Part shown: piece after piece, positions 1 through 13,716 of the stretch | Numbering within the stretch: position 1 is the first letter of the stretch | Layout of the letters: every line of letters begins with the position of its first letter | Notes under the pieces: generated by a model | Told to the model about the DNA's origin: nothing | Databases searched by the model: none | The model's input: only the letters and a program-made list of their open reading frames with translations | Source: a virus | Virus record (IMG/VR): IMGVR_UViG_3300037507_003763 | Coordinates: 1-56,121 of that record | Direction: 5' to 3' (one strand) | Length of the DNA: 56,121 nt | Program-made: the position numbers and the translations under genes

Positions 1-108
1 AGAACCAGGAAATTTCCATTCCAACATTCTCACAAGGCCAGCAGCAAGCCATGTGCCTATGCCACCAGCTCCAACCATTACAATTCTTTTTACATTTTCT
101 TCAGACAT
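1..108 (-). CDS. ThiF/E1-like adenylating enzyme, N-terminal fragment
   Basis: Only the first 36 residues are inside the window; the gene runs off the left edge. After a short start (MSEENVKR) there is a hydrophobic strand and a glycine-rich loop, VMVGAGGIGTWLAAGL, the typical nucleotide-binding Rossmann motif of ThiF/MoeB/E1 enzymes, which adenylate the C-terminus of ubiquitin-like proteins. A NAD-binding dehydrogenase cannot be excluded from this fragment alone. It follows the JAB peptidase gene by 24 bp in the same operon, and that neighbour plus the E2-like gene make the E1 reading the best one. Confidence 0.6.
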   Translation of the reverse strand, partial: MSEENVKRIVMVGAGGIGTWLAAGLVRMLEWKFPGS

Positions 109-132
109 AAAAACCTCTTTATTGTTAAAATA

Positions 133-1836
133 CTAATCTCTAAAATGCATCGGCAAAGCGCTTATGGTATCATCGTGCTTTAAGAACTTGTGGCACTCTG
201 TTATTGAATTCTGCAAACGTTGACCAGTATTGCAGTAATCAATAATTGCATCATAATAAGAAGGACAAGTAGCTGTGTAATAATAAACGCAATTATGACA
301 TTCAGAAGTGTAAGAATATATGTCCATATCACGATGATCTAAATCAAAATCAGTGATGTCATCGAATAAGACCATTTTTTTACACATACAGTTGGTTGGA
401 AGGTCAAAACAGCAAACTGTTAAATCAGCGTCAAAACCATCTTCACTTGCAGTTTTTAAAAGATAATCATCATCGTCATCGTAAGGTGCGTAGGTTTCTA
501 CAATTGTTGCAGATGATTTAGTGAGTGAAGAATCATAATGATTTTCAGATCCATATATCTTAAGAACTTGCTGTTCACCATTTTTTGGATCAATAGTCCA
601 AAGATAAACAGATCTCTTTCCTGTGATATACCTGTCAGTCATGTATTTCTCAGCTTTAATCATGACTTCTTTAAAATCATCAGTCATTGAAACTACTGGA
701 ATGTCGCAAATAGGACATGAGCCAGCAGTCAAATCATAATCAGCCATAGTATACTCGCAAGAAGGACAAATGATATCTCTTGCAACAGGATCAAGTTCAG
801 CTAAGATAATATGCGGAGTTGGATCATTTATAACTGGTATATTTAGAAGACCTTTTTTAGTAGTACCAACTGGAGTAGATCCCAGCGTTACTTGTTGAGA
901 GAGAGTTAGTGGTTGATCCGTTAGTGGTTTGTGGTTGTGCTGTGACGCCACCAGCGAAGCCGAACCCCCCGTAGGGGGTTGTACTTTTTTTACTTTAGTA
1001 GACCACTCTACTACTAAAGAATCTGGAGCTTTATTTGAAACAAAACCCTCAAAAACATCTTCAGGCTTTAATGTCCAAGAGTTGCCAGCCATCTGCATTT
1101 CAATGTAATATTGAGTTGCACCACCGTTTACTGATTTCTGCCATCCATAAGTAATATGGATGCCATCAAAGTCTGCTTGGTCGGCGTGATCTGTCCCAGA
1201 CGCATAGGCTGCCATTCCAGGATGAGAGTGGACTGAGCCAACAATCAAAACATCTTCAGGTTTTTCTTCAACGATAGAATCAGGATTGTAGTTGCAGTGA
1301 ACAGAAGTATTAGTCTGCTCAGGAACAAGAACACCCCATCCTGAAGAATCTTTTTTGCTTGGGTCAAAAGTCAAAAGAACGATTGACTCAGTGCCGTGTT
1401 GAGCATCGACTAATCTAAAGAAATCATCAAGTCTATTTACAATTTCCATAGGTATACCAGGAAGATTGTATTCTGCTGTTTCGCGCACAGGAGCAAGATC
1501 AGCTATGTCAGCACTAACTGCGCTTACAGCACGACCAATTATATTATTAACAACTTTAACAATAGAAGTTGTTTTCTCTGTTATATAAGTTGACTGATTG
1601 TTAGCAGGAGGAGTGCCTACAGTATAGGTGTTATTGTAATGGGTGGTAGAAGAGCTAGAATAAGTCTTCGTTTCAACTTTCTTATCTTCTGCAATATTGC
1701 AAATAAGATAATAAATGGAAAATCCAAGGTCTTCAATGATGTCTTCAATATCATCACGATCTGCGTAAAATATTGGAAGGCCATCAGAAGCCCAAAAATA
1801 ATTCAAATCATCTAATGTAACTTTTTTGTCAGACAT
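133..1836 (-). CDS. JAB/MPN-domain metallopeptidase (deubiquitinase-like)
   Basis: Protein of 567 aa. Residues 203-216 read HSHPGMAAYASGTD, a complete JAMM zinc motif (H-x-H-x7-S-x2-D), so a zinc isopeptidase of the JAB/MPN family, which removes ubiquitin-like modifiers, is likely. The first 100 residues contain an Ser/Thr/Asn-rich stretch. The C-terminal half carries Cys pairs (CPSC and CPIC near 357-377, then a second Cys-rich part near 470-540) that look like zinc ribbons, unusual for a simple JAB protein. It lies between the E2-like gene upstream (32 bp) and the ThiF-like gene downstream (24 bp), so it probably belongs to one conjugation/deconjugation cassette. The fold call is from the motif; the substrate is unknown. 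Confidence 0.75.
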   Translation of the reverse strand: MSDKKVTLDDLNYFWASDGLPIFYADRDDIEDIIEDLGFSIYYLICNIAEDKKVETKTYSSSSTTHYNNTYTVGTPPANNQSTYITEKTTSIVKVVNNIIGRAVSAVSADIADLAPVRETAEYNLPGIPMEIVNRLDDFFRLVDAQHGTESIVLLTFDPSKKDSSGWGVLVPEQTNTSVHCNYNPDSIVEEKPEDVLIVGSVHSHPGMAAYASGTDHADQADFDGIHITYGWQKSVNGGATQYYIEMQMAGNSWTLKPEDVFEGFVSNKAPDSLVVEWSTKVKKVQPPTGGSASLVASQHNHKPLTDQPLTLSQQVTLGSTPVGTTKKGLLNIPVINDPTPHIILAELDPVARDIICPSCEYTMADYDLTAGSCPICDIPVVSMTDDFKEVMIKAEKYMTDRYITGKRSVYLWTIDPKNGEQQVLKIYGSENHYDSSLTKSSATIVETYAPYDDDDDYLLKTASEDGFDADLTVCCFDLPTNCMCKKMVLFDDITDFDLDHRDMDIYSYTSECHNCVYYYTATCPSYYDAIIDYCNTGQRLQNSITECHKFLKHDDTISALPMHFRD

Positions 1837-1868
1837 AAAACTCCTATATCTTATATTCGGTATTTTGT

Positions 1869-3752
1869 TTAAAATTGAACCTTATCATAATCAATGTGGA
1901 CAGATATCCCAACCATAGAATTAGAATTACCTGGTATTGCATTCTCAATAGTGAAATTAGAAAGCTCTTTAGAAAACGGAACATATTCACCTTCTAAAAT
2001 TCCGTTGGAATTAAGAGACAAATTGCCTATACACTTAGCGCAACATTCTGTAATCTCTGCTTTAATTTCAGAATCTTTTCCAGCAATAATAGTTGTTTTA
2101 ACACATGGTTTAATTTCAGATTTATTACTCTGCAATGCTCCACATGGGCAAACAACAGCTTTTGAAAGACTAAATAAACCTTTTTCAATGCATGTAGCGC
2201 ACGAAACAATGGTTTCTTTCTTAAATGCAAGATTATTGGAATCATCAAAGTAAGCAGTTGTATGATTCAGTGTGTAAAACATATCTGGCAAAGAAGGACA
2301 ATTCTTTATAACCGTAGTCTCACATGAATAACACTTGCCAATATAGTCTTCGTAGCCTTGATCTTTTACAAAAGAGGTAATACAATGAGCGCAAACAGTA
2401 TTGTATTCGTTACCATGATCATCAAGATAAGGAGTAGGAAGATTGTAAATCGGAAGAGTTTTGTTCTGTCCATGAGCACCCCAAGAAAACTGGCATTTTT
2501 CGCACTGCTTCCAAGTGTCATGTTCGATATGAACAGCGCAGTCTAAATTGTCTGCAAAACAAATATCCATATGATCAGATGGATAATAAATAGAAACGCT
2601 CTCTATGTAGACATAATGCTCTGATGTACAACCAGAGCAAATTGTATTGCCGTCATAGTCTGCTATATTGTCTTCAGTTCCATCATATACTTCTTCGCAA
2701 GAATAGCAAATCCAATTATCTTCAGATTCATCCTGTTCATCATCAAAACTCAATTGAGGCTGGACTTTGCTCGCAACTGCTTCCCGATGTGAATCAGAAA
2801 ATTGAAAAGGATTATCTTTTTTCTCAAACGTTACAACAGCGGGTGCAGAAGCAAAAGAAGACTTAAACATAGAAGCAACTTTATCATTTGAAAAGTTTAG
2901 ATCTTCTCTAGCAAGGATATTATAAAGCTTTGGAATTTCTTTGTCAGTATAATAAGCCTGGTAATTGCCCAGCAAAGCCATTGAAAGAGTAAGTGGTACT
3001 CCTTTTTCATTATGGGAACCTTGCGAATCAATGCCCTCAACTTTGACAGGAATCCAAAGATCAGGATCTAAAGTCCAGTCAAATCCATCAAACTCAGTTT
3101 TTTTCTGCCAAGCTTGTGGATTATAAGTATAATTAGGTTTACCAAAAGCCTCGTAGAAACGAGGTCCATCAGTTTCACTCATGTTCGCGTCGTTGTAAGT
3201 CTCAACTCCGCTGCACCGTTCAATAAGTCTAGAAACTTTTTCATTAAAAGAAAAAGTAGACCAATCCTCTTTTAGATACAAGCAAATCCAACCTACGCCA
3301 TTACCACGGTAACCTTTACAGTTGATATTAGGAAGATTGACATGGTACAAGGGCATTCCTGGATGAGTTATTGGATACGGAGAATAAAACATTCTGGCAC
3401 CGAGAAGGTTGCCGTTAACAAAATCTCCAATAACAATGCGATAAGGCTGGGCTAGATAAAAAGTATTCGCGTGCCTGTCACCTTCATGATCGCCCCAATT
3501 GATATGATAGGTTCCAGGCTTGTGCTGGACAGTAATTTGCATATGGTGTCCAGCAGAACGAATTGACAGAACTCCAGTACCATCTAAGGGAAGAAGTCCT
3601 GTGTCGATTGAAGAAGAGCTTGAAAAGTGTTTATAAAAAGAAACAATATCTTTTTCAACAACTTGATTTAAATTAAAAGAAGAAACTGTAGACTGGATTA
3701 CATAAGCTCCGTCTTCCCTCTTCTTAAGGGCATAATTAAACGAATCAACCAT
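1869..3752 (-). CDS. E2-like (UBC-fold) protein with C-terminal zinc fingers
   Basis: Protein of 627 aa. Start at 3752 has GGAG six bases upstream and overlaps the previous gene by 8 bp; the open frame continues further upstream but lacks a better start. Residues 140-164 show LPNIN, then a Gly-rich turn, then W-ICL-YLKEDW. This matches the E2 signature HPNIN..G.ICL...W, with C157 in the place of the catalytic cysteine. It is followed by a helix and a PRFYEAF segment resembling the E2 C-terminal helices. From residue 349 on there are many CxxC pairs (CYSC, CSGC, CEKC, CAHC, CYSC, CATC, CAKC), so about half the protein is a chain of zinc ribbons. Neighbours are a JAB peptidase and a ThiF-like enzyme. 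The fold is inferred from motif and context, not from a search. Confidence 0.5.
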   Translation of the reverse strand: MVDSFNYALKKREDGAYVIQSTVSSFNLNQVVEKDIVSFYKHFSSSSSIDTGLLPLDGTGVLSIRSAGHHMQITVQHKPGTYHINWGDHEGDRHANTFYLAQPYRIVIGDFVNGNLLGARMFYSPYPITHPGMPLYHVNLPNINCKGYRGNGVGWICLYLKEDWSTFSFNEKVSRLIERCSGVETYNDANMSETDGPRFYEAFGKPNYTYNPQAWQKKTEFDGFDWTLDPDLWIPVKVEGIDSQGSHNEKGVPLTLSMALLGNYQAYYTDKEIPKLYNILAREDLNFSNDKVASMFKSSFASAPAVVTFEKKDNPFQFSDSHREAVASKVQPQLSFDDEQDESEDNWICYSCEEVYDGTEDNIADYDGNTICSGCTSEHYVYIESVSIYYPSDHMDICFADNLDCAVHIEHDTWKQCEKCQFSWGAHGQNKTLPIYNLPTPYLDDHGNEYNTVCAHCITSFVKDQGYEDYIGKCYSCETTVIKNCPSLPDMFYTLNHTTAYFDDSNNLAFKKETIVSCATCIEKGLFSLSKAVVCPCGALQSNKSEIKPCVKTTIIAGKDSEIKAEITECCAKCIGNLSLNSNGILEGEYVPFSKELSNFTIENAIPGNSNSMVGISVHIDYDKVQF

Positions 3753-4143
3753 TGTTATCTCCAAGTATATGTTGTATCTGATTATCAAGATCTTCACTAA
3801 AGTCACCAAAAGTAGATGCAAACCAAGAAGGATCTGTTTCTGCATGTTCGATAACTTTTAGTTTTGCAAGAAGATTATCCTTAACCTCTACTAAGTCAGC
3901 AACCCGATCAAGAGCTTTGGAAAGACCCTTGAGGGTTTCTTTGTCATGAGTCATGTTCAAGAGAACTTGAACTACTGGAAAATCATCTATTTGAAAATGT
4001 TCTATGATTTTAGATATCCGCTCATCAATAGATGAGAGTTGAGACTTTATTTCCTTTTTAGTTTCATTGGAAGAATCTAAATTGAACTGAAAAGTCTTTA
4101 TAGGAAAAGAACTTTTAGATTGTCTGTTTGAAGATTCAGACAT
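3745..4143 (-). CDS. Small coiled-coil protein, unknown function
   Basis: Protein of 132 aa, first gene of the group leading into the E2/JAB/E1 cassette; its stop overlaps the start of the E2-like gene, so the two are probably translationally coupled. A polar N-terminus is followed by helices with heptad-like spacing (KKEIKSQLSSIDERISKII and LSKALDRVADLVEVKDN). It contains two in-frame CGG codons (3904-3906 and 4018-4020), both read as Arg without a shift. It ends in DNNG; not a convincing ubiquitin-like fold. Function unknown. Confidence 0.75.
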   Translation of the reverse strand: MSESSNRQSKSSFPIKTFQFNLDSSNETKKEIKSQLSSIDERISKIIEHFQIDDFPVVQVLLNMTHDKETLKGLSKALDRVADLVEVKDNLLAKLKVIEHAETDPSWFASTFGDFSEDLDNQIQHILGDNNG

Positions 4144-4152
4144 AAAAACCCC

Positions 4153-4542
4153 TTACTGTTGAAGTATCTCTGCGGCTTTTTGTATTTGAGAATTAGTAAA
4201 AAGAAGTTTTTCTAATTCATTGTTCCAGATCGTGGGATCTAGTCCTTGAGCAGAAATATAGTTTTTAAATTTTTTCCAAAACATTCTTCTTTGACGTGGA
4301 GTTAGTCCACCCCAAACTCCGTGATCTTCAGAAGATACAAGTGCGGTGTACAAGCATTGTTTTTGAACTGGACAGGAATAACAGTACTTAATAGCGTTTT
4401 GTTTAAGAACAACATCTTCTGGATCGTAAAAAGAATCAACGCCAACAGATTTGCATTTTGCGTCATTTGACCATCTGGTCATATTTGACGATACACGAAT
4501 CTGATGCTGAACAAATTGTTCATTGTTGGTTCTAAAGTTCAT
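4153..4542 (-). CDS. WhiB-family iron-sulfur transcription regulator
   Basis: Protein of 129 aa with the WhiB pattern: C30, then C54-x2-C57-x5-C63, which would hold a [4Fe-4S] cluster, followed by GVWGG at residues 75-79 and a basic stretch (LTPRQRRMFWKKF) that binds sigma factor or DNA. WhiB proteins occur only in actinobacteria and their phages, so this is the best single host clue. Phage WhiB proteins can dampen host WhiB genes or redirect RNA polymerase. The start codon overlaps the stop of the upstream gene by one base (TAATG). Confidence 0.93.
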   Translation of the reverse strand: MNFRTNNEQFVQHQIRVSSNMTRWSNDAKCKSVGVDSFYDPEDVVLKQNAIKYCYSCPVQKQCLYTALVSSEDHGVWGGLTPRQRRMFWKKFKNYISAQGLDPTIWNNELEKLLFTNSQIQKAAEILQQ

Positions 4543-5180: not shown

Positions 5181-5214
5181 AAAATCTCCTCATTTTTTTA
5201 TTTTGAGAACACAG

Positions 5215-5289
5215 TACCGCACCTGGGAATTGAACCCAGCAAATGGATGTTTATAAGACATCTGTGTTCAACCAGCTCACCCGTGCGGT
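5215..5289 (-). tRNA. tRNA-Ile(UAU)
   Basis: The 75-nt sequence folds as a tRNA: perfect 7-bp acceptor stem (ACCGCAC with GTGCGGT), T arm CTGGG-TTCAATT-CCCAG, and anticodon stem GATGT-ACATC around the loop CTTATAA, giving anticodon UAU. It reads AUA, a frequent Ile codon in the AT-rich late genes. No CCA is encoded. The anticodon loop has the normal 7 bases. Confidence 0.85.
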
Positions 5290-5349
5290 GAGCTATCATA
5301 TTCGAACAGATGCCTGTATAAATCCATTTCGGTTCATAATCATTTCTCC

Positions 5350-5355
5350 ATTATA
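5350..5355 (-). promoter_or_regulatory. Possible -10 box for the tRNA-Ile/WhiB transcript
   Basis: On the minus strand this is a perfect TATAAT. No good -35 is present at 16-18 bp. A 15-codon reading frame starting MIMNRNG, with GGAG before it, follows immediately and ends before the tRNA; it may be a leader peptide or chance. Confidence 0.4.
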
Positions 5356-5420
5356 GCAGATTAATTGGTGATAGTGATGACAGGCGATATGTAGGCCACG
5401 TGCTTATTATCATCATTGAC

Positions 5421-5442
5421 GTTCCCCAATGTTAATTGGAAC
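5421..5442 (-). terminator. Hairpin downstream of the MGMDVYG gene
   Basis: GTTCC..CAAT and ATTGGAAC can pair (8 bp with a two-base bulge) just after the stop of the gene at 5449-5973. There is no strong T run, so this may be a weak terminator or a processing hairpin. Confidence 0.35.
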
Positions 5443-5448
5443 ACGCTA

Positions 5449-5973
5449 TCACCAAATCTTAAAACCTCCACACTTAGACAAGAATTCAGCAAATTCTTTT
5501 ATATCATCTAAATCAAGATAATAATAAGTGAGAAAGCTTTTTCTAGATCCTGTACCTTGACAACCATTACAATCTATGACAATTTCTCCATCAGAGTTAA
5601 TTTCATAAGGTTGTTCGTTGTTTTTGACAACACTGCTTACGGCCATATGATTTTTGGACCAAGCTCTTTTTCCAGTTTTTTGACAATATTCGCAGTCTTC
5701 TAAGGGAAGACTTTTCAACATTTCGTTTCTTTGATCTATATACTCTTGAGCTTTTCCTGAATCAATATCTTTTTTGAGTCTTACAGAAAGCTTTTTGGAA
5801 TCGATGGAATTTAAACCATCTCCGTCGTTACTGTGGCCATATTCAACCTTAGAAGCAATGTCTTCGTGGTTGTCTTCACAATAACCCCATAACGGACGCC
5901 AGCCCCAAACGTTCCTTCTAAAATATTCGCCTACTTCACTTTTTGGATTATTACCATATACATCCATGCCCAT
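5449..5973 (-). CDS. Phage protein with DnaJ-like zinc knuckle
   Basis: Protein of 174 aa starting MGMDVYGNNP and continuing GEYFRRNVWGWRPLW, a pattern I associate with a family of small phage and bacterial proteins of unknown role. The C-terminal half has CEYCQKTG and CNGCQGTG, which resemble the CxxCxGxG zinc knuckles of DnaJ. AGGAG lies 9 bases before the ATG. Function unknown. Confidence 0.75.
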   Translation of the reverse strand: MGMDVYGNNPKSEVGEYFRRNVWGWRPLWGYCEDNHEDIASKVEYGHSNDGDGLNSIDSKKLSVRLKKDIDSGKAQEYIDQRNEMLKSLPLEDCEYCQKTGKRAWSKNHMAVSSVVKNNEQPYEINSDGEIVIDCNGCQGTGSRKSFLTYYYLDLDDIKEFAEFLSKCGGFKIW

Positions 5974-5984
5974 AAAGTATTCTC

Positions 5985-6230
5985 CTATTTAGAACTTAAT
6001 TCTTTGAATTGAGCAGGAAACCAATGCTCTTCAAAGAAGATTTCTTCAGCTTTATCATAATCAGTGTTTTCTTCAGCAATTACACCTTCGTCGTCAGTGT
6101 AACCTTGTTCGTAATAATACTCTTGAAGATGACCTTCAGAAATCCAACGATCAACCATAGAACTCTTTTCTTCTTCAGAAATAGAATCCCATTTATCGTA
6201 GATTATTTCAAGCTTGTCTTGATCGGTCAT
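5985..6230 (-). CDS. Small acidic protein
   Basis: Protein of 81 aa with a very high Asp/Glu content and several Tyr/Trp residues (DKWDSISEEEKSSM, EEIFFEEHWFP). Not recognised. It lies 11 bp upstream of the MGMDVYG gene in the same string. A DNA-mimic or inhibitor role is possible for such a composition but is only a guess. Confidence 0.65.
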   Translation of the reverse strand: MTDQDKLEIIYDKWDSISEEEKSSMVDRWISEGHLQEYYYEQGYTDDEGVIAEENTDYDKAEEIFFEEHWFPAQFKELSSK

Positions 6231-6244
6231 AAAAAATAACGCCT

Positions 6245-6487
6245 TTACGTTGTTTTATATTGCACTCTTGTCAGGGGGTAAGCCAAGAGTACAGCCTTGT
6301 CAGTGTGAATTTCGTAGCATTTTAAAGAATCGTTTTTGGAAAACTTTTGAATAGTCATTGGCTCGGTTACACGAGACTGCCCAACAAACAAAGTCATGCC
6401 TACAGTAAGATTTTCCACAGTAATGGAAGAACCATAATAATGATCTGGGTTGTGTGGCAACATGATTTCTGGCTTGATATCAGACAT
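6245..6487 (-). CDS. Small hypothetical protein
   Basis: Protein of 80 aa with predicted beta structure (SSITVENLTVGMTLFVG). Ribosome site TAGGAG seven bases before ATG 6487. Not recognised. It is in a run of short same-strand early genes. Confidence 0.65.
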   Translation of the reverse strand: MSDIKPEIMLPHNPDHYYGSSITVENLTVGMTLFVGQSRVTEPMTIQKFSKNDSLKCYEIHTDKAVLLAYPLTRVQYKTT

Positions 6488-6509
6488 AAATATCTCCTAA
6501 AGTTTAAAT

Positions 6510-6734
6510 TTATGATTCTATTTGTTGAGACTGTTGTTTATCATACAGTTGTTCAGCAAGTATTTCTAAAATAGATTCTAAAGAACACGCAATGCGTTCC
6601 AATTGTCTAGTTTTTATATGATCCATTTCTTGAATGCTAGGAATCCTATGGCTAGTCTTTGTATGAGGACCAGTATAGTTTTCAAAAGAAATCCTATATT
6701 GGTCTTCTGAATGGTCATAATAATATCTAGACAT
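6510..6734 (-). CDS. Small hypothetical protein
   Basis: Protein of 74 aa. It has a Tyr/His-rich N-terminus and a helical, probably coiled-coil C-terminal half (KTRQLERIACSLESILEIL). Not recognised. Its ATG lies just downstream of the stop of a membrane microprotein. Confidence 0.65.
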   Translation of the reverse strand: MSRYYYDHSEDQYRISFENYTGPHTKTSHRIPSIQEMDHIKTRQLERIACSLESILEILAEQLYDKQQSQQIES

Positions 6735-6736
6735 AA

Positions 6737-6820
6737 TTAAATCTTTCTTTTAAAAATAATTCCAAGAATAATTCCAACAGCAGCAACAATAGCAAGAACA
6801 GAAAAAGAATTAAGCATCAT
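6737..6820 (-). CDS. Single-pass membrane microprotein (27 aa)
   Basis: MMLNSFSVL then AIVAAVGIILGIIF and KRKI: one hydrophobic helix with a positive C-terminal end, so an Nout/Cin membrane peptide is expected. AAAGGA is upstream of the start. Its stop is 2 bp from the next gene, as expected for a real gene in this string. Confidence 0.5.
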   Translation of the reverse strand: MMLNSFSVLAIVAAVGIILGIIFKRKI

Positions 6821-6926
6821 CTGAGAATCCTTTGTTGTAAAATCTTGTCGAAGGCTGTTTTAAGGATAAAGCAAAAAAATTAAATATAAGTATAAAAGAA
6901 ATCTGAACGAATAAAGACTCTGTCAT
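6810..6926 (-). CDS. Possible hydrophobic microprotein (38 aa)
   Basis: Reads MTESLFVQISFILIFNFFAL followed by a polar tail ending GFSDDA. The stop overlaps the start of the next microprotein (ATGATGCTTAA), which would couple them. No ribosome site is evident, so this call is weak. Confidence 0.3.
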   Translation of the reverse strand: MTESLFVQISFILIFNFFALSLKQPSTRFYNKGFSDDA

Positions 6927-6967
6927 AGATATATAGAATAAATGAAGTAAATCAATAACAAACATAA

Positions 6968-7252
6968 TTAATAATTGTCGTCATTCAAAAACTTTTGAAC
7001 TTCTTGGTCATTGTCTAATATCTTAGCTTGTTCTTGAGAGTATTGTTTTTCATATTCCAAAACAGCTTCTTCAATTACTGCATTAAGCATACTAGCAACT
7101 GCAAGAGTAGTTTTCATCTCATCGCTATCTAACATGTTTTTTGCGATAAGAGAAGAAACTCTTGCGCATAAAGCTTTATGAGTTTCAAGCATCTGATCAT
7201 AATTAAAAACAAACTGATGCTTAAAGTCTAAGGCAAAGTTAGTTATTGGCAT
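6968..7252 (-). CDS. Hypothetical helical protein
   Basis: Protein of 94 aa, helical, ending in a Glu/Gln/Asp-rich stretch (EYEKQYSQEQAKILDNDQEV). GAGG before ATG 7252. Overlaps the preceding gene by 10 bp. Not recognised. Confidence 0.65.
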   Translation of the reverse strand: MPITNFALDFKHQFVFNYDQMLETHKALCARVSSLIAKNMLDSDEMKTTLAVASMLNAVIEEAVLEYEKQYSQEQAKILDNDQEVQKFLNDDNY

Positions 7253-7641
7253 AATACCTCGGGATAAAGTAAGGTAACATCAGAATTGTTTTCAACTAAA
7301 AATTGATTTAATTTAACTAAATCATAATTTAAAGAAACTTGTATAAGTTTTTTAACTTGAGGAAAACTAAGAATTGTTTCAACGTACTTTTTATAAGAAG
7401 TATAAGTTAAACGAGGATGCAAAAAGTCATCACCGTACTTTTCATATATGTGAGATGAAAGTTCAAAATTTGAACTTATAAAATTACGATAATGATAAAG
7501 AATGACAGCTTCCAAATCAGTGCAGCCTACCGATCTGAGCATGCTGATTTTTTCAGAATTTAATTTTTTAAACTGAGAAGGTACATTAAAATTAGTATAA
7601 GATTTTTCAGGATATATAAAAAAATCTTTAAACAATTCCAT
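7243..7641 (-). CDS. Hypothetical protein
   Basis: Protein of 132 aa starting MELFKDFF. I chose ATG 7641 because GGAG lies six bases before it; a farther ATG at 7668 would overlap the upstream gene. Rich in Tyr, Phe and Lys, with no motif I recognise. Confidence 0.65.
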   Translation of the reverse strand: MELFKDFFIYPEKSYTNFNVPSQFKKLNSEKISMLRSVGCTDLEAVILYHYRNFISSNFELSSHIYEKYGDDFLHPRLTYTSYKKYVETILSFPQVKKLIQVSLNYDLVKLNQFLVENNSDVTLLYPEVLCQ

Positions 7642-7651
7642 AACTACTCCA

Positions 7652-7999
7652 TTAAAGTTCGTCTTCATCCAATTCTATATCTGGATAAAGGTTTTCTTCT
7701 TCGTCTTCATCAAATGATTCTTGAATTTGATCTAATCTTTTAAATTCCTCGTCATCTTTAAGGGATTGAAGACTATAATGAGAATTCTCAATAGTATTAG
7801 CACAAGCATACATGCAAGCTTTAGAAACTACTGAAACACCTTCTTCGTCGAAGTCTTCGTAAGACAACTGCATAAGCTTTAGACCAGCATTAGCCAAAAG
7901 ATCCAACAAATCAAAAGAATTATTAATTTTTAAATCAAGTTGAAAATCTACTAATAAATTAGCATTTTTGTATTGTTGAATAATATCTTCAGGTTTCAT
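7652..7999 (-). CDS. Hypothetical acidic protein
   Basis: Protein of 115 aa. Helical N-terminus (KPEDIIQQYKNANLLVDF) and a strongly acidic C-terminal tail (SFDDEDEEENLYPDIELDEDEL on translation, in short runs of Asp/Glu). AAGGA lies upstream. Not recognised. Confidence 0.65.
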   Translation of the reverse strand: MKPEDIIQQYKNANLLVDFQLDLKINNSFDLLDLLANAGLKLMQLSYEDFDEEGVSVVSKACMYACANTIENSHYSLQSLKDDEEFKRLDQIQESFDEDEEENLYPDIELDEDEL

Positions 8000-8024
8000 T
8001 GTTATGTTTCCTTAAAAATGTAAG

Positions 8025-8198
8025 TTACTTTACAAGTTTTCCTTGTTTATTATATATGTCTCCGCAATCATCACATGTATATCCATCTGGATAACCAGTA
8101 GACAAAGCCCATTCATCAATTATGTGATTGTTGAATACTGCGCATTGTTTACATACAAGGCTAGGTACTTTTGTGATTACGCCAATTTTTTTATTCAC
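8025..8198 (-). CDS. Small zinc-ribbon protein, GTG start
   Basis: Protein of 57 aa starting at GTG 8198, which overlaps the stop of the upstream gene (GTGA). CKQC and CDDC about 28 residues apart would bind one zinc. No other motif. The GTG overlap and zinc pattern support a real gene although it has no ATG start. Confidence 0.6.
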   Translation of the reverse strand: MNKKIGVITKVPSLVCKQCAVFNNHIIDEWALSTGYPDGYTCDDCGDIYNKQGKLVK

Positions 8199-8380
8199 AA
8201 AACTACTTTCTGTAGTAAGTTTCCATCATCATCAGTATAAAGATTTGTATAAATAATGATCTGACCTTCATTATCATAATCAAAATCAGCTGATGGAATA
8301 AAAGTTGCAATAAGTGTTTCTAAAGAATACACATTTTCAACAAAGGGTTTGTCTGATTGTTTCTTAGATTTATTTTTCAT
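8195..8380 (-). CDS. Small hypothetical protein after tRNA
   Basis: Protein of 61 aa starting MKNKSKKQSDKPF. The open frame continues back into the tRNA gene, but the first ATG after the tRNA (8380) is the sensible start. Acidic, beta-like C-terminus (DNEGQIIIYTNLYTDDDGN). Not recognised. Confidence 0.55.
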   Translation of the reverse strand: MKNKSKKQSDKPFVENVYSLETLIATFIPSADFDYDNEGQIIIYTNLYTDDDGNLLQKVVL

Positions 8381-8382
8381 AG

Positions 8383-8455
8383 TGGGCCGTGTAGGGATCG
8401 AACCTACGGCCAAGGCATTATGAGTGCCCTGCTCTAACCGCTGAGCTAACGGCCC
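8383..8455 (-). tRNA. tRNA with anticodon CAU (Ile2 or elongator Met)
   Basis: 73 nt, acceptor stem GGGCCGT/ACGGCCC, anticodon loop CTCATAA (7 nt), discriminator A. The D arm and the context GUUAGAGCAGGG resemble tRNA-Ile2, whose CAU is modified to lysidine to read AUA, more than tRNA-Met. Given the Ile(UAU) gene nearby this could be a second AUA reader. Sequence alone does not settle Ile2 versus Met. Confidence 0.85.
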
Positions 8456-8467
8456 GTAATAATAGAC

Positions 8468-8815
8468 TTATCTGATTGCCTGCCACCAGGCATCTTCTAA
8501 GTCTTGCTTGGACTGAAGTTCTGTATCTTCTTTAGATTTTAGACGAGAACGAACTTTGTCATATAAGCCATCAAAAACATCTTCGTAGGTTACTTGTGCG
8601 TAATCAATATTACCCAATTCTATTGCAAAAGCTTCAGCTACTTGTTTCCAATCTTCTGAACACTTTTTCAAACGTTCAATTTCATTAGCAGCTTCAATAA
8701 TAAAATCTTCAGCCCATTTAGCATCTTTGCAAGAACATTCATATGGATGTCTAGCAGAACATTTACAGCCTAAACCTTTATAATTTCTAAGCTTATAAAC
8801 AATGTCTTCAGACAT
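8468..8815 (-). CDS. Phage protein with Cys cluster and helical core
   Basis: Protein of 115 aa. The N-terminus has CKCSARHPYECSCKDAKW, a possible zinc site, followed by helices with ANEIERLKK. The combination (Cys cluster, then AADEIERL-type helix) occurs in many small phage proteins of unknown role. TAGGAG precedes ATG 8815. Confidence 0.65.
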   Translation of the reverse strand: MSEDIVYKLRNYKGLGCKCSARHPYECSCKDAKWAEDFIIEAANEIERLKKCSEDWKQVAEAFAIELGNIDYAQVTYEDVFDGLYDKVRSRLKSKEDTELQSKQDLEDAWWQAIR

Positions 8816-8827
8816 AAATCTCCTAAT

Positions 8828-9157
8828 TTAATCTTCGTCTACAATCTTAGCGGATTTTGAACTTCTCCTGTGCTCAGCTAAGATGTAAGGAACTCTGTAT
8901 CCTAAATCAGTAATTGAGTATGTATTGTTTTTGTGCGAAGATGCATATTTGTATGTAACAAGATTTTGCAAAGCTTTTGATACAATCTCTATCTTTTTAA
9001 ATCTATTAGGAGCTAAATCAAATATTTCTTCTATTGTTGCAGATGGTTTGCGAGCGCGCCAACGCATTGAAAGATAGTTTAAAACAACTTCTTCATTAGA
9101 AGATGGTTTTATCTTACAGCGTAAAATTGAGGATGTTTTATTAACTTTGCGAGTCAT
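8828..9157 (-). CDS. Winged-helix-like hypothetical protein
   Basis: Protein of 109 aa from ATG 9157 (an alternative ATG at 9184 adds MDILQLKIK). Order of elements: NYLSMRWRA helix, ATIEEIFDLA, KIEIVSKALQNLVTYKYA, then a beta hairpin (NTYSITDLGYRVP). This is the usual pattern of a winged helix-turn-helix with recognition helix and wing. Inference only; possible DNA-binding regulator. Confidence 0.5.
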   Translation of the reverse strand: MTRKVNKTSSILRCKIKPSSNEEVVLNYLSMRWRARKPSATIEEIFDLAPNRFKKIEIVSKALQNLVTYKYASSHKNNTYSITDLGYRVPYILAEHRRSSKSAKIVDED

Positions 9158-9494
9158 CTTTATCTTTAGTTGTAAAATATCCATTTAAGGATTCTATTAC
9201 ATTTCTCCATTTTGGATCATAGTTATCGGCAAAATAATTAAAATCAAACATTAACTTTTCTTTAAGACCTTTTTGAGAAAGCTCATAAATCATTTCAAAG
9301 AAAGAAGGTTCATTAGTAGAAAGGTGATGGTCTTTGCCAGTCAATGGGTTTCTTAAACGAACATAGGCAGCATTAACCATGGGTATCATAATATGATGAT
9401 TGGAATTAGCAGCAGATTGAATAGCAATCTCTTCAGGACTGCGAGTGTCTTTAACGGCTGCAGCTTTCTTTTGGGCATTCTTTAGTGGTGGCAT
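9141..9494 (-). CDS. Hypothetical protein
   Basis: Protein of 117 aa with a Lys/Ala-rich start (KNAQKKAAAVKD) and a conserved-looking core (MVNAAYVRLRNPLTGKDHHL). ATG overlaps the stop of the upstream gene. Not recognised. Confidence 0.65.
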   Translation of the reverse strand: MPPLKNAQKKAAAVKDTRSPEEIAIQSAANSNHHIMIPMVNAAYVRLRNPLTGKDHHLSTNEPSFFEMIYELSQKGLKEKLMFDFNYFADNYDPKWRNVIESLNGYFTTKDKDDSQS

Positions 9495-9694
9495 TAGTCG
9501 TTCTTTCTATGCTTGTTTTTGGACTTCTGTTTTTTTCTCTCAATCTTTTCATTGAGAGTATTTATAGCATATGTAATAGCTTGTTCATAACCATGCCAAA
9601 AACCCTCATTCCATTCATCGTCAGAATGAGATTGAGATTCAATAGCCATTTTCTTTGCTTTTTCAAAAGCAGAAACGGTATTAGTCAAGTTCAT
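9494..9694 (-). CDS. Small basic protein
   Basis: Protein of 66 aa: a helix around FWHGYEQAITYAINTLNEK and a very basic C-terminus (KKQKSKNKHRKND). GGAAG upstream of ATG 9694. It is the first gene after a strong terminator, so it needs its own promoter, which I could not identify. Confidence 0.6.
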   Translation of the reverse strand: MNLTNTVSAFEKAKKMAIESQSHSDDEWNEGFWHGYEQAITYAINTLNEKIERKKQKSKNKHRKND

Positions 9695-9751
9695 GTTCTT
9701 CCAATTCTTTGGATGATTGTTTGTTTTATGGCAGATTTTTATACAAACATT

Positions 9752-9808
9752 AAAAAAATTGCTATGTCAGAAAGACATGTCTCAGCATGAGTTTATTTCC
9801 GACATAGC
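9752..9808 (-). terminator. Rho-independent terminator after tRNA-Lys
   Basis: On the minus strand GCTATGTCGGAAA pairs with TTTCTGACATAGC (one mismatch), followed at once by AA and seven T. This ends the tRNA-Lys transcript. Confidence 0.8.
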
Positions 9809-9811
9809 TAG

Positions 9812-9884
9812 TGCGCCCTCCGAGGATCGAACTCGGGACCAACGGATTAAAAGTCCGGTGCTCTACCAGCTGAGCTAAAGGCGC
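9812..9884 (-). tRNA. tRNA-Lys(UUU)
   Basis: 73 nt. Acceptor GCGCCTT/AGGGCGC, D arm AGCTCAGCTGGTAGAGC, anticodon loop CTTTTAA (UUU), T arm with GTTCGATCC. Reads AAA, the dominant Lys codon in this AT-rich genome. Confidence 0.93.
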
Positions 9885-9890
9885 TAATTG

Positions 9891-10076
9891 TTACCAACAA
9901 CGGTCACAAGTGCAATGGTTGTATCTACCAGAGCCGCATTGCCATCTAGCTGTATGAGGTGGAAAGTGTTTAGAATTTTGTTGTCTTTGTTCGTCACAAT
10001 AGGAGCATTCTCCGATTGGAGCAAACTGCATAAAAATATAATCTTCTGGTTGAGAGGAAGCAGCTTCTCTAAACAT
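9891..10076 (-). CDS. Small Cys-rich protein
   Basis: Protein of 61 aa starting MFREAASSQ at ATG 10076, overlapping the upstream stop by 8 bp. CSYC and later CGSG..HCTCDRC suggest one or two zinc sites. The C-terminus ends directly before tRNA-Lys. Not recognised. Confidence 0.55.
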   Translation of the reverse strand: MFREAASSQPEDYIFMQFAPIGECSYCDEQRQQNSKHFPPHTARWQCGSGRYNHCTCDRCW

Positions 10077-10227
10077 AAAGTTCCTGAGTTTTGTCAGCTT
10101 CTTCTTCAACCATAAGGTGAAGTCTTATATCTAAAAGAAGATCAGTCATCTCAGCAGAAGAAACAAGTTCTCTTCCGCTTATTTGTGTAATGGCATTGTC
10201 TATGAGTTTTAATATTGGTTTTGTCAT
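10069..10227 (-). CDS. Small helical protein
   Basis: Protein of 52 aa starting MTKPILKLIDNAI. The frame is open into the tRNA-Asn gene, but the ATG just after the tRNA (10227) is the realistic start. Acidic C-terminus (MVEEEADKTQE). Not recognised. Confidence 0.5.
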   Translation of the reverse strand: MTKPILKLIDNAITQISGRELVSSAEMTDLLLDIRLHLMVEEEADKTQELYV

Positions 10228-10229
10228 AG

Positions 10230-10302
10230 CTGGCGAGGCAGGGCTCGAACCTGCGACCCAGGGATTAACAGTCCCTTGCTCTGCCAACTGAGCTACTCGC
10301 CA
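10230..10302 (-). tRNA. tRNA-Asn(GUU)
   Basis: 73 nt. Perfect acceptor TGGCGAG/CTCGCCA, AGCTCAGTTGGCAGAGC D arm, anticodon loop CTGTTAA (GUU), discriminator G. Confidence 0.93.
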
Positions 10303-10314
10303 TTACATGTTTAA

Positions 10315-10704
10315 CTATATTTGAGACTGAACGTAAGACATGTGCTCAGGGCAGATATGCTTGACAGAACCAAGAATAATTCCTGCAAAAAGCTCATCGT
10401 CGTATGATCCGCTTGAATAGTCTGACATAATATTAATAATGGAATCAAGAGTGTTTCCAGTATCAAGAGCGTCGCAAACTACCGTGCCAAACTTCAAAAG
10501 ATCTGCTTCATCCCAAGACCTAGCTTGGGCAGAAAAAGCATATAGCTCTTCCAAGTACAAATCGTATTTGTTTGTCACTGGAGCTTCTGTAACAGCAGGA
10601 GCCTCAGTAGGGGGAGTTGTGACAAGAACTTCTTTTATTACTGTCTCTTTACCACAAGCGGCAAGAGATAGAATTGCAAGAGAAGTTATAATTAACTTTT
10701 TCAT
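10315..10704 (-). CDS. Secreted lipoprotein, DUF732-like
   Basis: Protein of 129 aa. The signal peptide MKKLIITSLAILSLAAC ends in a lipobox (LAAC), so it should be lipid-anchored on the outside of the cell membrane. A Thr/Pro/Ala linker (PPTEAPAVTEAPVT) leads to a helical domain with conserved Cys in VVCDALDTG and a final HICPEH, the pattern of the DUF732 family known from mycobacteria. Prophage and phage lipoproteins of this kind often act in superinfection exclusion; that role is a guess here. It follows the Xre gene by no gap (10704/10705). Confidence 0.7.
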   Translation of the reverse strand: MKKLIITSLAILSLAACGKETVIKEVLVTTPPTEAPAVTEAPVTNKYDLYLEELYAFSAQARSWDEADLLKFGTVVCDALDTGNTLDSIINIMSDYSSGSYDDELFAGIILGSVKHICPEHMSYVQSQI

Positions 10705-10962
10705 TTATTTACCTTGTGCTTTGAATAGTTTGTTAGGACTCAATTCTAGCACAGTCATAAGACGAATAACAGTATCTAGGTTGGGAGAAAAGTGTCCATT
10801 CTCGATTCTGTTGATTGTCTTTCGATCAACTCCAGCAATGTAAGCTAAAGTAGATTGACTGATTCCTTTAGCAATTCGTTTATCACGAACAGTTTCAGCA
10901 AAACGATCTTTTGCTTTCTTAACTTCACTTGATCTTGGTTTAATAAAGAATTGAATAGTCAT
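10705..10962 (-). CDS. Xre-family HTH transcription regulator
   Basis: Protein of 85 aa with a complete HTH_3 domain: RDKRIAKGISQSTLAYIAG (helices 1-2), VDRKTINRIENGHFSP (recognition helix), LDTVIRLMTVLELSPNKLF. AAAGGA is placed well before ATG 10962. It likely acts as a repressor or regulator and forms an operon with the lipoprotein gene. Nothing suggests an integrase beside it, so there is no direct support for lysogeny. Confidence 0.88.
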   Translation of the reverse strand: MTIQFFIKPRSSEVKKAKDRFAETVRDKRIAKGISQSTLAYIAGVDRKTINRIENGHFSPNLDTVIRLMTVLELSPNKLFKAQGK

Positions 10963-10999
10963 GTTTTAATATCCTTTGTTGTTGTTTGTTTTTGTGGGG

Positions 11000-11085
11000 T
11001 GCCCAAGACGGGAATCGAACCCGTACGGCCATTTCTGACCGAGGGGGTTTAAGCCCCTTGCGTCTACCAATTCCGCCACCTGGGC
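11000..11085 (-). tRNA. tRNA-Leu(UAA)
   Basis: 86 nt with a long variable arm. Acceptor GCCCAGG/CTTGGGC, D arm GGTGGCGGAATTGGTAGACGC typical of class II Leu, anticodon loop CTTAAAC (UAA). Reads UUA, common in late genes. Confidence 0.93.
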
Positions 11086-11804: not shown

Positions 11805-13265
11805 CTACTTATTTCTAGGATAGATTCTGACAAACATGGAAGGATCAGACTCTCTTCCATATATGTCAATTGCTGTCATATAACAATAATTAATTTCCTT
11901 AGAAGGAACTTGTAACTTGTATGTATCAACGGTCCATCGAGTCTGATGAGGAATCACATAAGTCTTAGGACCATTGCAATAGAGATTGTAATGAGAAACT
12001 ATGTTTCTACCCATTACAGGAACTCTATACTTTACATATACAAAGTCGCTAAAGCGACCATCAAGTTCGAAAAGTAGTGGTTTAGTTAAAGTCGGATAAA
12101 ATCTTGGAGGCGTAACTGTAGTCGTAGGAGAAGGAACAGTAGTAACTGGTGGTGTCAGAGTAGTTGTAGTAGGAGAAGGAACGGTTGTAGTAGTTGTAAC
12201 TACAGTTGTAGATGTAGTTGAAGTAGTAGTAGTTACAACAGTACCTGAGTCTGCAAATAGCGCAGCAAAATCAATACGATTAATATAAATACCAGTATAA
12301 TCATCATATGCCTTTTTAGAAGTAGCAGCAAAGTCAGAAATAACTTTAGATACTTCTTGTTTGCCGAACTTAGAATAATAAACGGCAAATGCTCCAGTAA
12401 CATGAGGAGAGGCCATAGATGTTCCTGAAGCAGTTCTATAAGAACCCATAAGAGCAGCAGAGTTGATTATGTTACCAGGAGCAGCAAATGTAGTAAGATT
12501 ATTGATATTTGAAAAGGTAGTGACATTGTCATCTGCAGCATTTGTGGCAGCAACAGATACAGCAAAGCTGATACATGCTGGAGCACTCATTCCATTTGCG
12601 TAACTATTGCCAGAAGAAATAACAGTCGCAATCTTTTTAGTGCGAAGATTTCGAATAGCATCTGTCATCTCTGGAATATATCCATCGCAAGTGGAATTAA
12701 ATACTTGAGTACCACCTAAAGACATGTTTACGGCAACAATGTTGTATTCAGAAGAAATGGAGTTTACCCAGTTTAAAGCTTTAGTAATGTCACTGTCATA
12801 AGCTCCACCATAAATGTCAAAAACATTTACGGCAATAATTTTAGCTTCAGGTGCAACACCAACAAAAGATGAGTTAGCACCTGCAGCAATACCTGCTACG
12901 TGAGTACCATGCCAGTGCATTGGCTTTGCTGCACCTGGGCCAACCATTTCTTTTTGGCCATTAGGACATCTAGCTGAAAAGCATGCCTCTAAGGCTACCC
13001 GACCACCAAAAAATGGATGGGAAGATTCAATTCCAGTGTCAATAATAACTACATAGGATCCTTGTCCCTTGTAGTTTGATTGATGCGCTAAGTTAGCAGA
13101 GATATGAGGAATGCTTTTAGTTAGAGTATATTTAAAACGAATTTCGGTAGTAGCAGGAGCAACGTCATTGTATTTAAACTTATTGGTAGCTGACACTACT
13201 TTGTACGAACTAAAAGAAAAGATTGAAACAAAAACTATAAAAATATTAAAGTATTTTTTACGCAT
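11805..13265 (-). CDS. Secreted subtilisin-like serine protease (peptidase S8)
   Basis: Protein of 486 aa from ATG 13265 (GGAG upstream). Signal peptide at residues 1-26 (basic start, hydrophobic IFIVFVSIFSF, VVSA cleavage). Catalytic triad visible: D76 in VVIIDTGIE, H119 in HGTHVAG, S283 in GTSMASPHVTGA; N220 in SSGN is the oxyanion Asn. A Thr/Val/Pro linker (about 355-410) leads to a beta-rich C-terminal domain with two or more Cys. Such linkers are common in secreted actinobacterial proteins. A secreted protease is unusual phage cargo; it may act on the host envelope, on competitors or on nutrients. Contains one in-frame CGG (12999-13001) read as Arg. Confidence 0.92.
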   Translation of the reverse strand: MRKKYFNIFIVFVSIFSFSSYKVVSATNKFKYNDVAPATTEIRFKYTLTKSIPHISANLAHQSNYKGQGSYVVIIDTGIESSHPFFGGRVALEACFSARCPNGQKEMVGPGAAKPMHWHGTHVAGIAAGANSSFVGVAPEAKIIAVNVFDIYGGAYDSDITKALNWVNSISSEYNIVAVNMSLGGTQVFNSTCDGYIPEMTDAIRNLRTKKIATVISSGNSYANGMSAPACISFAVSVAATNAADDNVTTFSNINNLTTFAAPGNIINSAALMGSYRTASGTSMASPHVTGAFAVYYSKFGKQEVSKVISDFAATSKKAYDDYTGIYINRIDFAALFADSGTVVTTTTSTTSTTVVTTTTTVPSPTTTTLTPPVTTVPSPTTTVTPPRFYPTLTKPLLFELDGRFSDFVYVKYRVPVMGRNIVSHYNLYCNGPKTYVIPHQTRWTVDTYKLQVPSKEINYCYMTAIDIYGRESDPSMFVRIYPRNK

Positions 13266-13716
13266 AACGACTCCATTTGACGGATGATATATAAAAAGAT
13301 TCGGCTGACTCATGGCCAGTTGTATACACAACCTTGTCGATACCCGACTCCATTATTTTTTGCATACACCATGAGCAAGGCTTTGCCATTGCATTGGTAT
13401 CTGCAGAATTAAGTCTAGCCACATAAAGGGTTGCACCATCTGTATCAGATGCTACTTTAATAGCAGCTATCTCAGCGTGAGTAGAAAACCTATTGGGAGG
13501 AGTACTTGGTGATCTTCTAGTTATATTAGAGCTACCACCAAGAACTCGTCTAGATTTTACTACGATTGCACCGACTCTAAAACGATTGTCAGAAGTAAAA
13601 GCTAGTTTAGTAGCAACAGATAAAAATTTTTGATCATTGTTGGATATATGATCGTATATCTCGTATTCATAATCTTCGTATGGGTTAATGACTTTTCGAG
13701 AATAATAACGAATCAT
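13258..13716 (-). CDS. Cytidine/deoxycytidylate deaminase-like protein
   Basis: Protein of 152 aa with the zinc deaminase signature: HAEIAAI (H80, E82) and PCSWC (C114, C117). This could convert dCMP to dUMP or act on cytidine or a modified base. The size fits dCMP or CMP deaminases, but dCMP-deaminase-specific elements are not obvious. Tail overlaps the subtilisin start by 8 bp; head is 3 bp from the helicase stop. Confidence 0.8.
   Translation of the reverse strand: MIRYYSRKVINPYEDYEYEIYDHISNNDQKFLSVATKLAFTSDNRFRVGAIVVKSRRVLGGSSNITRRSPSTPPNRFSTHAEIAAIKVASDTDGATLYVARLNSADTNAMAKPCSWCMQKIMESGIDKVVYTTGHESAESFYISSVKWSRYA

Follow-up and report, generated by a model that had tools for sequence, protein, structure and literature searches.

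A candidate ubiquitin-like conjugation cassette retained across a lineage of large phages

Ubiquitin-like protein tagging is normally associated with eukaryotic cells; among bacteria, it is linked to a small number of defence or plasmid operons. The IMG/VR record IMGVR_UViG_3300037507_003763, a 56,121-bp fragment of an uncultivated phage that was analysed at its full length (the window), carries at its left end genes encoding an E2-like protein (E2a), a JAMM protease and an E1-like enzyme, of which only the first 36 residues are visible. These genes lie on the minus strand and run from right to left; the left edge of the window is their downstream end, and cuts the third gene. The initial annotation, made from the letters of the window alone, had proposed a cassette resembling E1-E2-JAB conjugation, comprising an E2-like protein with a C157 motif and zinc ribbons, an intact JAMM peptidase and a ThiF/E1-type start. 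The follow-up analysis described here supports each of these assignments, and adds a ubiquitin-like protein (Ubl), two more E2-like genes (E2b and E2c) and an AAA+ ATPase that lie outside the window. These remaining genes were read from relatives, and are assumed for the window's phage.

E2a (627 aa; 1869..3752, minus strand) comprises a UBC-like part (residues ~1-320), assigned by homology to E2b, and a C-terminal zinc domain. The predicted active-site segment, YHVNLPNINCKGYRGNGVGWICLY (3276..3347, minus strand), contains the putative catalytic residue Cys157 (codon at 3284-3282), and is followed by a presumed zinc-binding region with seven CxxC pairs (2031..2708, minus strand). The next gene (133..1836, minus strand) encodes a JAMM/JAB peptidase of 567 aa, with an N-terminal domain and a C-terminal zinc-ribbon region, which scores just above the Pfam Prok-JAB cut-off (25.4 bits vs 25, E=1.4e-5). 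Both its metal-binding motif, H-x-H-x7-S-x2-D (residues 203-216; 1230-1189, minus strand), and the upstream glutamate, E150, are intact, and three CxxC pairs follow in a Cys-rich region (289..768, minus strand). The E1-like gene (1..108, minus strand), of the ThiF family of adenylating enzymes, is cut by the contig end; it reads MSEENVKRIVMVGAGGIGTWLAAGLVRMLEWKFPGS from position 108, begins with a GxGGxG motif and is identical at 27/35 residues to a complete 251-aa relative (L003:10609-11364).

Searching viral contigs for members of the E2-like, JAB and Ubl families yielded 7-42 loci per family. The relatives are large, mostly freshwater phages, most of the long contigs measuring 146-268 kb, and their cassettes have a fixed gene order: coiled-coil protein, E2a, JAB, E1, Ubl, AAA+ ATPase, a 205-aa protein and a 129-aa protein, with E2b ~4-5 kb downstream of Ubl and E2c after it. 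In all 42 Ubl loci, E1 lies directly upstream and the AAA+ gene downstream. Of four divergent relatives found with E2a, three (L059, L062 and L066) have ~3-4 extra genes (~2 kb) between Ubl and AAA+, and the contig of the fourth (L064) ends before the AAA+ position. The 205-aa protein that follows AAA+ (L004:13315-13932 and homologues) is 59-98% conserved and matched no family. One contig, IMGVR_UViG_3300042868_009074 (267,766 bp), holds two different cassette copies, at ~19.6 kb (L015) and ~235 kb (L090), each with its own E1 and Ubl genes, which could come from the merging of two phages during assembly or from a true duplication.

The initial annotation had suggested looking beyond the left edge, i.e. 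downstream, for a small protein ending in glycine. Such a protein, of 81-89 aa, directly follows E1 in every Ubl locus. AlphaFold2 (AF2) predicts a single beta-grasp domain (core predicted local distance difference test score ~85-90), and a Foldseek search with this model returned ubiquitin-family domains for almost all of the 50 best PDB matches (best E=3.2e-4, template-modelling scores 0.5-0.7), the nearest structures being ubiquitin, NEDD8, ISG15 and other ubiquitin-like domains. The C-terminal EFHR[RK]xGEKG is the most conserved part of the protein, occurring in 31/31 distinct sequences; synonymous codon changes are found at every one of its positions, and its conservation therefore reflects selection at the protein level. 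Most of the phage Ubls stop exactly at the glycine of GEKG, and a few, in at least two separate branches, add two residues (SL, NI, LA or SK), as in precursors that need maturation.

Complete relatives place the E1-like protein within the ThiF family, as shown by the L004 homologue (L004:10541-11290; Pfam ThiF, E=1.5e-13; NCBIfam PRTRC_ThiF, E=1.1e-10), and the adenylation domain expected of the left gene is ThiF-type in every relative that reaches far enough. The protein is ~250 aa long, with a single ThiF match, and its ATP-site motifs and a Ser-Cys pair are invariant in 31/31 sequences. The JAMM motif is likewise intact in 36/36 distinct relatives, and the JAB protein is predicted from its sequence to be the Ubl-processing and deconjugating enzyme; among PDB entries the family profile comes closest to AMSH, at a score that is not significant (E=0.7).

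An alignment of 27 diverse E2a relatives shows C157 in all of them, and four of the CxxC pairs are invariant in 14 full-length relatives. A regular expression for the E2 active site matched 32/39 E2a proteins vs 1/759 other proteins, and a stricter version matched 27/39; the C157 alignment is the better evidence. The sole background match proved to be a second E2-like protein, E2b, which is homologous to E2a, to prokaryotic E2 family D (Prok-E2_D) and to eukaryotic E2s. Profile comparison by hhalign gave E=1.2e-4 for E2a vs E2b (0/150 column shuffles reach the score), E=1.5e-6 for E2b vs Prok-E2_D (0/200) and E=4.9e-4 for E2b vs eukaryotic E2s (0/150), the last being a set of four sequences, one of which (UBE2D2) was confirmed against the PDB. 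The catalytic cysteine is aligned in all three comparisons, and an active-site cysteine is present in every aligned E2b or E2c sequence. Pfam Prok-E2_D itself exceeds its cut-off in two divergent phages and in 0/14 control genomes. Because E2b links E2a to Prok-E2_D and to eukaryotic E2s, a UBC fold for E2a is supported indirectly. Neither the E2a profile searched against PDB sequences (no match) nor its direct comparison with PRTRC protein B (not significant) added to this. In one divergent phage, a possible fourth E2-like gene (L204:9019-9909) lies where Prok-E2_D matches most strongly (E=3.4e-10).

The zinc domains vary among relatives. E2a measures 445-518 aa in four divergent relatives, and the E2-like protein of L058 lacks the zinc region altogether. 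In L059, L062, L066 and L120 zinc domains are apparently encoded separately, as seen for part of the C-terminal zinc region of JAB; the same probably holds in L060, where a Cys-rich open reading frame separates E2a from JAB. A match of the E2a zinc region to IBR/RING models is weak, and was seen in L120 only.

Walker A and an aromatic pore loop are present in 33/33 sequences of the AAA+ protein, which is of the NSF/PAN type; its best named models are PAN and CDC48, both below their cut-offs.

Further genes were recognised in the window. A predicted coiled-coil protein of 132 aa (3745..4143, minus strand), whose gene overlaps the E2a start at its 3' end, is taken as the first cassette gene from its position in relatives: it lies directly upstream of E2a in all loci reaching that far, and a family search with it found no match. 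The adjacent WhiB-type gene (4153..4542, minus strand; Pfam Whib, E=3.5e-17) has counterparts close to the cassette in many relatives, though not in all; its product is regarded as a frequent neighbour from outside the pathway, and it may point to an actinobacterial host. Five tRNA genes (Ile, Met, Lys, Asn and Leu; 5214-11085, minus strand) are interspersed with small unknown genes on the upstream side of the cassette, and a subtilisin-family (S8) protease gene is located at 11805-13331 (minus strand; Pfam E=7.3e-36).

The terminase gene of the window (49630-51507) served as a query for independent relatives. Together with the cassette loci, this search gave 25 long records, of which 21 carry E1; Ubl is present in 21 of the 23 tested. 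Since many of these records were picked for having the cassette, the count of 21/25 shows retention along the lineage, and is not a frequency. The four records without it are G010 (162 kb) and three fragments of 57-98 kb; for G010, which has neither E1 nor Ubl, loss was ruled out by the position of its terminase relative to that of a near relative (G011), according to which this contig stops short of the cassette. Retention extends down to ~50% E1 identity. In the relatives compared, the cassette is ~50 kb from the terminase and not next to structural genes; its neighbourhood consists of non-structural genes, tRNA genes and the WhiB-type regulator. Searches with the window's E2a found no homolog in isolated phages, and in bacterial genomes a single contig only (L120, from an Ectothiorhodospiraceae metagenome-assembled genome), which is probably itself a phage contig. 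All long relatives examined in which the region is covered carry the cassette; it therefore probably takes part in a core step of infection, in which host or phage proteins are remodelled, instead of being an occasional counter-defence gene.

Bil, type II CBASS and PRTRC had been named as kin in the initial annotation; among these, comparison of sequences and gene order makes PRTRC the closest known relative, and Bil and CBASS are not the closest. PRTRC (ParB-Related, ThiF-Related Cassette) is a plasmid operon, type 6d of Iyer et al. 2006 (PMC1779556). The order E2 (protein B)-JAB (protein A)-ThiF on pENH92 is matched by E2a-JAB-E1 in the phages; plasmid protein C has GTKG or GAKG at its C-terminus, in some cases followed by further residues, where the phage Ubl has GEKG; PRTRC_ThiF is the best NCBIfam match of the phage E1 (hhalign of the two families, E=8.8e-8); and E2b matches Prok-E2_D, the family used for PRTRC protein B. 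In contrast to PRTRC, the phage Ubl follows E1, there are three E2-like genes instead of one, E2a and JAB bear zinc domains, an AAA+ gene stands beside Ubl, and the carriers are large phages rather than plasmids. The curated PRTRC models remained below their thresholds: the L004 E1 scored 41.3 bits against 144.75 for PRTRC_ThiF (TIGR03736), and the L004 JAB 17.3 bits against 101.8 for protein A (TIGR03735; PRTRC_A, E=0.0027, a weak match). Of the PRTRC and E2_D cut-offs, only that of Prok-E2_D was reached, and only in the two divergent phages. The PRTRC ParB-family protein (TIGR03734) was found in 0/14 phages, as was protein F (TIGR03742), for which the control genomes were silent too. Because gene order and family resemblance agree with PRTRC but the curated cut-offs and ParB do not, we describe the phage cassette as PRTRC-related, not as PRTRC. 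Two observations were made alongside this comparison. A ParBc_2/DUF6551 gene (L120:8446-9363) lies a few genes downstream of Ubl in L120 only, PRTRC operons also carrying a ParB-family gene. The JAB protein of Alicyclobacillus plasmid p1 (L115:5045-5986) has an N-terminal stretch resembling PRTRC protein C, possibly a Ubl-JAB fusion, with ...HKKGATRG before the JAB part.

Similar genes occur in other phages. Bacillus phage vB_BauM_KLEB27-3 (gp196-gp194) has Prok-E2_D-like and Prok-JAB genes side by side, with E1; Vibrio phage D69 has JAB and an E2_D-like protein side by side; and the human gut record MT835919 has JAB and E1. Unlike in the present cassette, no zinc domains were noticed in these three, and no AAA+ gene is listed beside their E2, JAB or E1 genes; by eye, no Ubl gene was recognised in KLEB27-3 or D69. 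Phage-borne E2-JAB-E1 genes may thus be more widespread than the lineage studied here.

Three further systems were compared. Type II CBASS likewise unites E1, E2 and JAB activities in one operon, with Cap2 being an E2-E1 fusion. A CBASS reading of the phage cassette was considered and not adopted. No CD-NTase, the target of CBASS conjugation, was recognised among the cassette genes searched, several neighbouring small genes lying outside that search. The anti-phage operon Bil (BilABCD) encodes an E1, an E2, a JAMM protease and a Ubl whose C-terminal glycine is exposed by the protease (PMC11354881), a set also found in the phage cassette; whereas BilA contains a pair of Ubl domains, and BilD joins a double adenylation domain to a Cys domain, the phage Ubl is a single domain, its E1 a single ThiF unit, and its E2s are several. 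Lambda tail proteins I and K also pair a ubiquitin-like domain with a JAB peptidase (PMC1779556), but in a tail-assembly module that lacks E1 and E2.

Taken together, these features make it highly probable that the cassette encodes a complete phage-borne pathway for conjugating and deconjugating a Ubl, possibly coupled to an unfoldase. In such a pathway, Ubls with a two-residue tail past GEKG would be trimmed to the terminal glycine by the JAMM protease. The ThiF-type E1 would use ATP to adenylate this glycine, and may hold the Ubl on the cysteine of its invariant Ser-Cys pair, before the Ubl is handed to an E2-like protein, on its invariant cysteine, and finally attached to a lysine of the target. 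E2a, with its zinc domain, E2b and E2c could route the Ubl to different targets, a choice that the zinc domains of E2a and the JAMM protein could aid. The JAMM protease could also remove attached Ubl, and the AAA+ ATPase, with the aromatic pore loop typical of protein-threading motors, could unfold tagged proteins.

Several observations weigh against this interpretation. The window carries only part of the cassette, and the AAA+ ATPase is related to proteins of phages in which a cassette of this kind was not noticed; its link to the Ubl is therefore one of association only, and it may be a mere neighbour. The PRTRC_C model (TIGR03738), searched in 14 phage genomes, matched none of their Ubl genes, and the Ubl-PRTRC_C profile match is weak (E=0.046). 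For E2a, searches against Pfam gave no match, direct comparison with eukaryotic E2s was not significant (18/300 shuffles reach the score), and the AF2 model found no significant Foldseek match; the UBC core predicted for it in the initial annotation is upheld indirectly by the E2b profiles, and not by the model. (VIA-align of this model listed E2 enzymes at Z 2.8-3.3, alongside unrelated proteins with similarly weak scores, and was not used as proof.) E2a could on these grounds be an unrelated zinc-binding phage protein with a chance PN...ICL motif, leaving E2b and E2c as the true E2s; we regard this as unlikely in view of the E2a-E2b profile match, with its aligned cysteine, and the near absence of the motif from background proteins. 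The E1, which like ThiF/MoeB has no separate catalytic-Cys domain, raises another alternative: such a minimal, ThiF-like enzyme would suit a sulfur carrier of the ThiS/MoaD kind, with the Ubl adenylated, converted to a thiocarboxylate by a sulfur donor and used in biosynthesis, and with E2-like proteins that do not conjugate. No sulfur-transfer or cofactor-synthesis gene was recognised beside the cassette, and a JAMM protease and three E2-like proteins with invariant active-site cysteines are present; we consider this the least probable of the readings.

If the Ubl is conjugated, its targets could belong to host or phage. Conjugation directed chiefly against host defence, or at host takeover through tagging of host proteins, would fit the location of the cassette, which is remote from the terminase and has non-structural genes, tRNA genes and a WhiB-type regulator around it, and host-phage conflict is a known setting for such chemistry, as the Ubl-like conjugation of CBASS acts on an immune enzyme (PMC10097602); counter-defence genes are, however, usually patchy, whereas 21/25 long relatives carry this one, and we entertain the idea with reserve. 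Equally tentative is conjugation to the phage's own proteins, in virion assembly, replication or genome partition. Retention to ~50% E1 identity, the ParB-family gene that accompanies PRTRC on plasmids and the pairing of a ubiquitin-like tail protein with a JAB protease in lambda-type phages (PMC1779556) point in this direction, but structural genes are not adjacent, the terminase is ~50 kb away and no PRTRC ParB was found. The most elaborate form of the conjugation pathway, which we offer as a conjecture, is a branched core pathway of the phage, in which a single Ubl and E1, three E2s that each have targets of their own and one deconjugating enzyme are coupled to the phage's own Cdc48/PAN-like unfoldase, such that tagged proteins would be extracted or remodelled during infection.

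Within the literature searched, from which subscription journals and preprints were largely absent, we found no report of a complete phage Ubl cassette, the described cases being bacterial, plasmid, CBASS/Bil and lambda tail Ub-JAB systems. E1-E2-Ubl-JAB operons are known from prokaryotic defence systems and plasmids; here such a set appears complete, and lineage-wide, in phages. Having three E2-like proteins beside a single E1 and a single Ubl, it resembles eukaryotic ubiquitination in its branching and, if the conjecture of a branched pathway coupled to an unfoldase is true, would constitute a viral counterpart to the ubiquitin-Cdc48 route of eukaryotes. The tails of the Ubl precursors offer a simple protease test, and the poorly understood PRTRC family gains relatives, including the cultivated Bacillus phage KLEB27-3, that are open to genetic tests of function.

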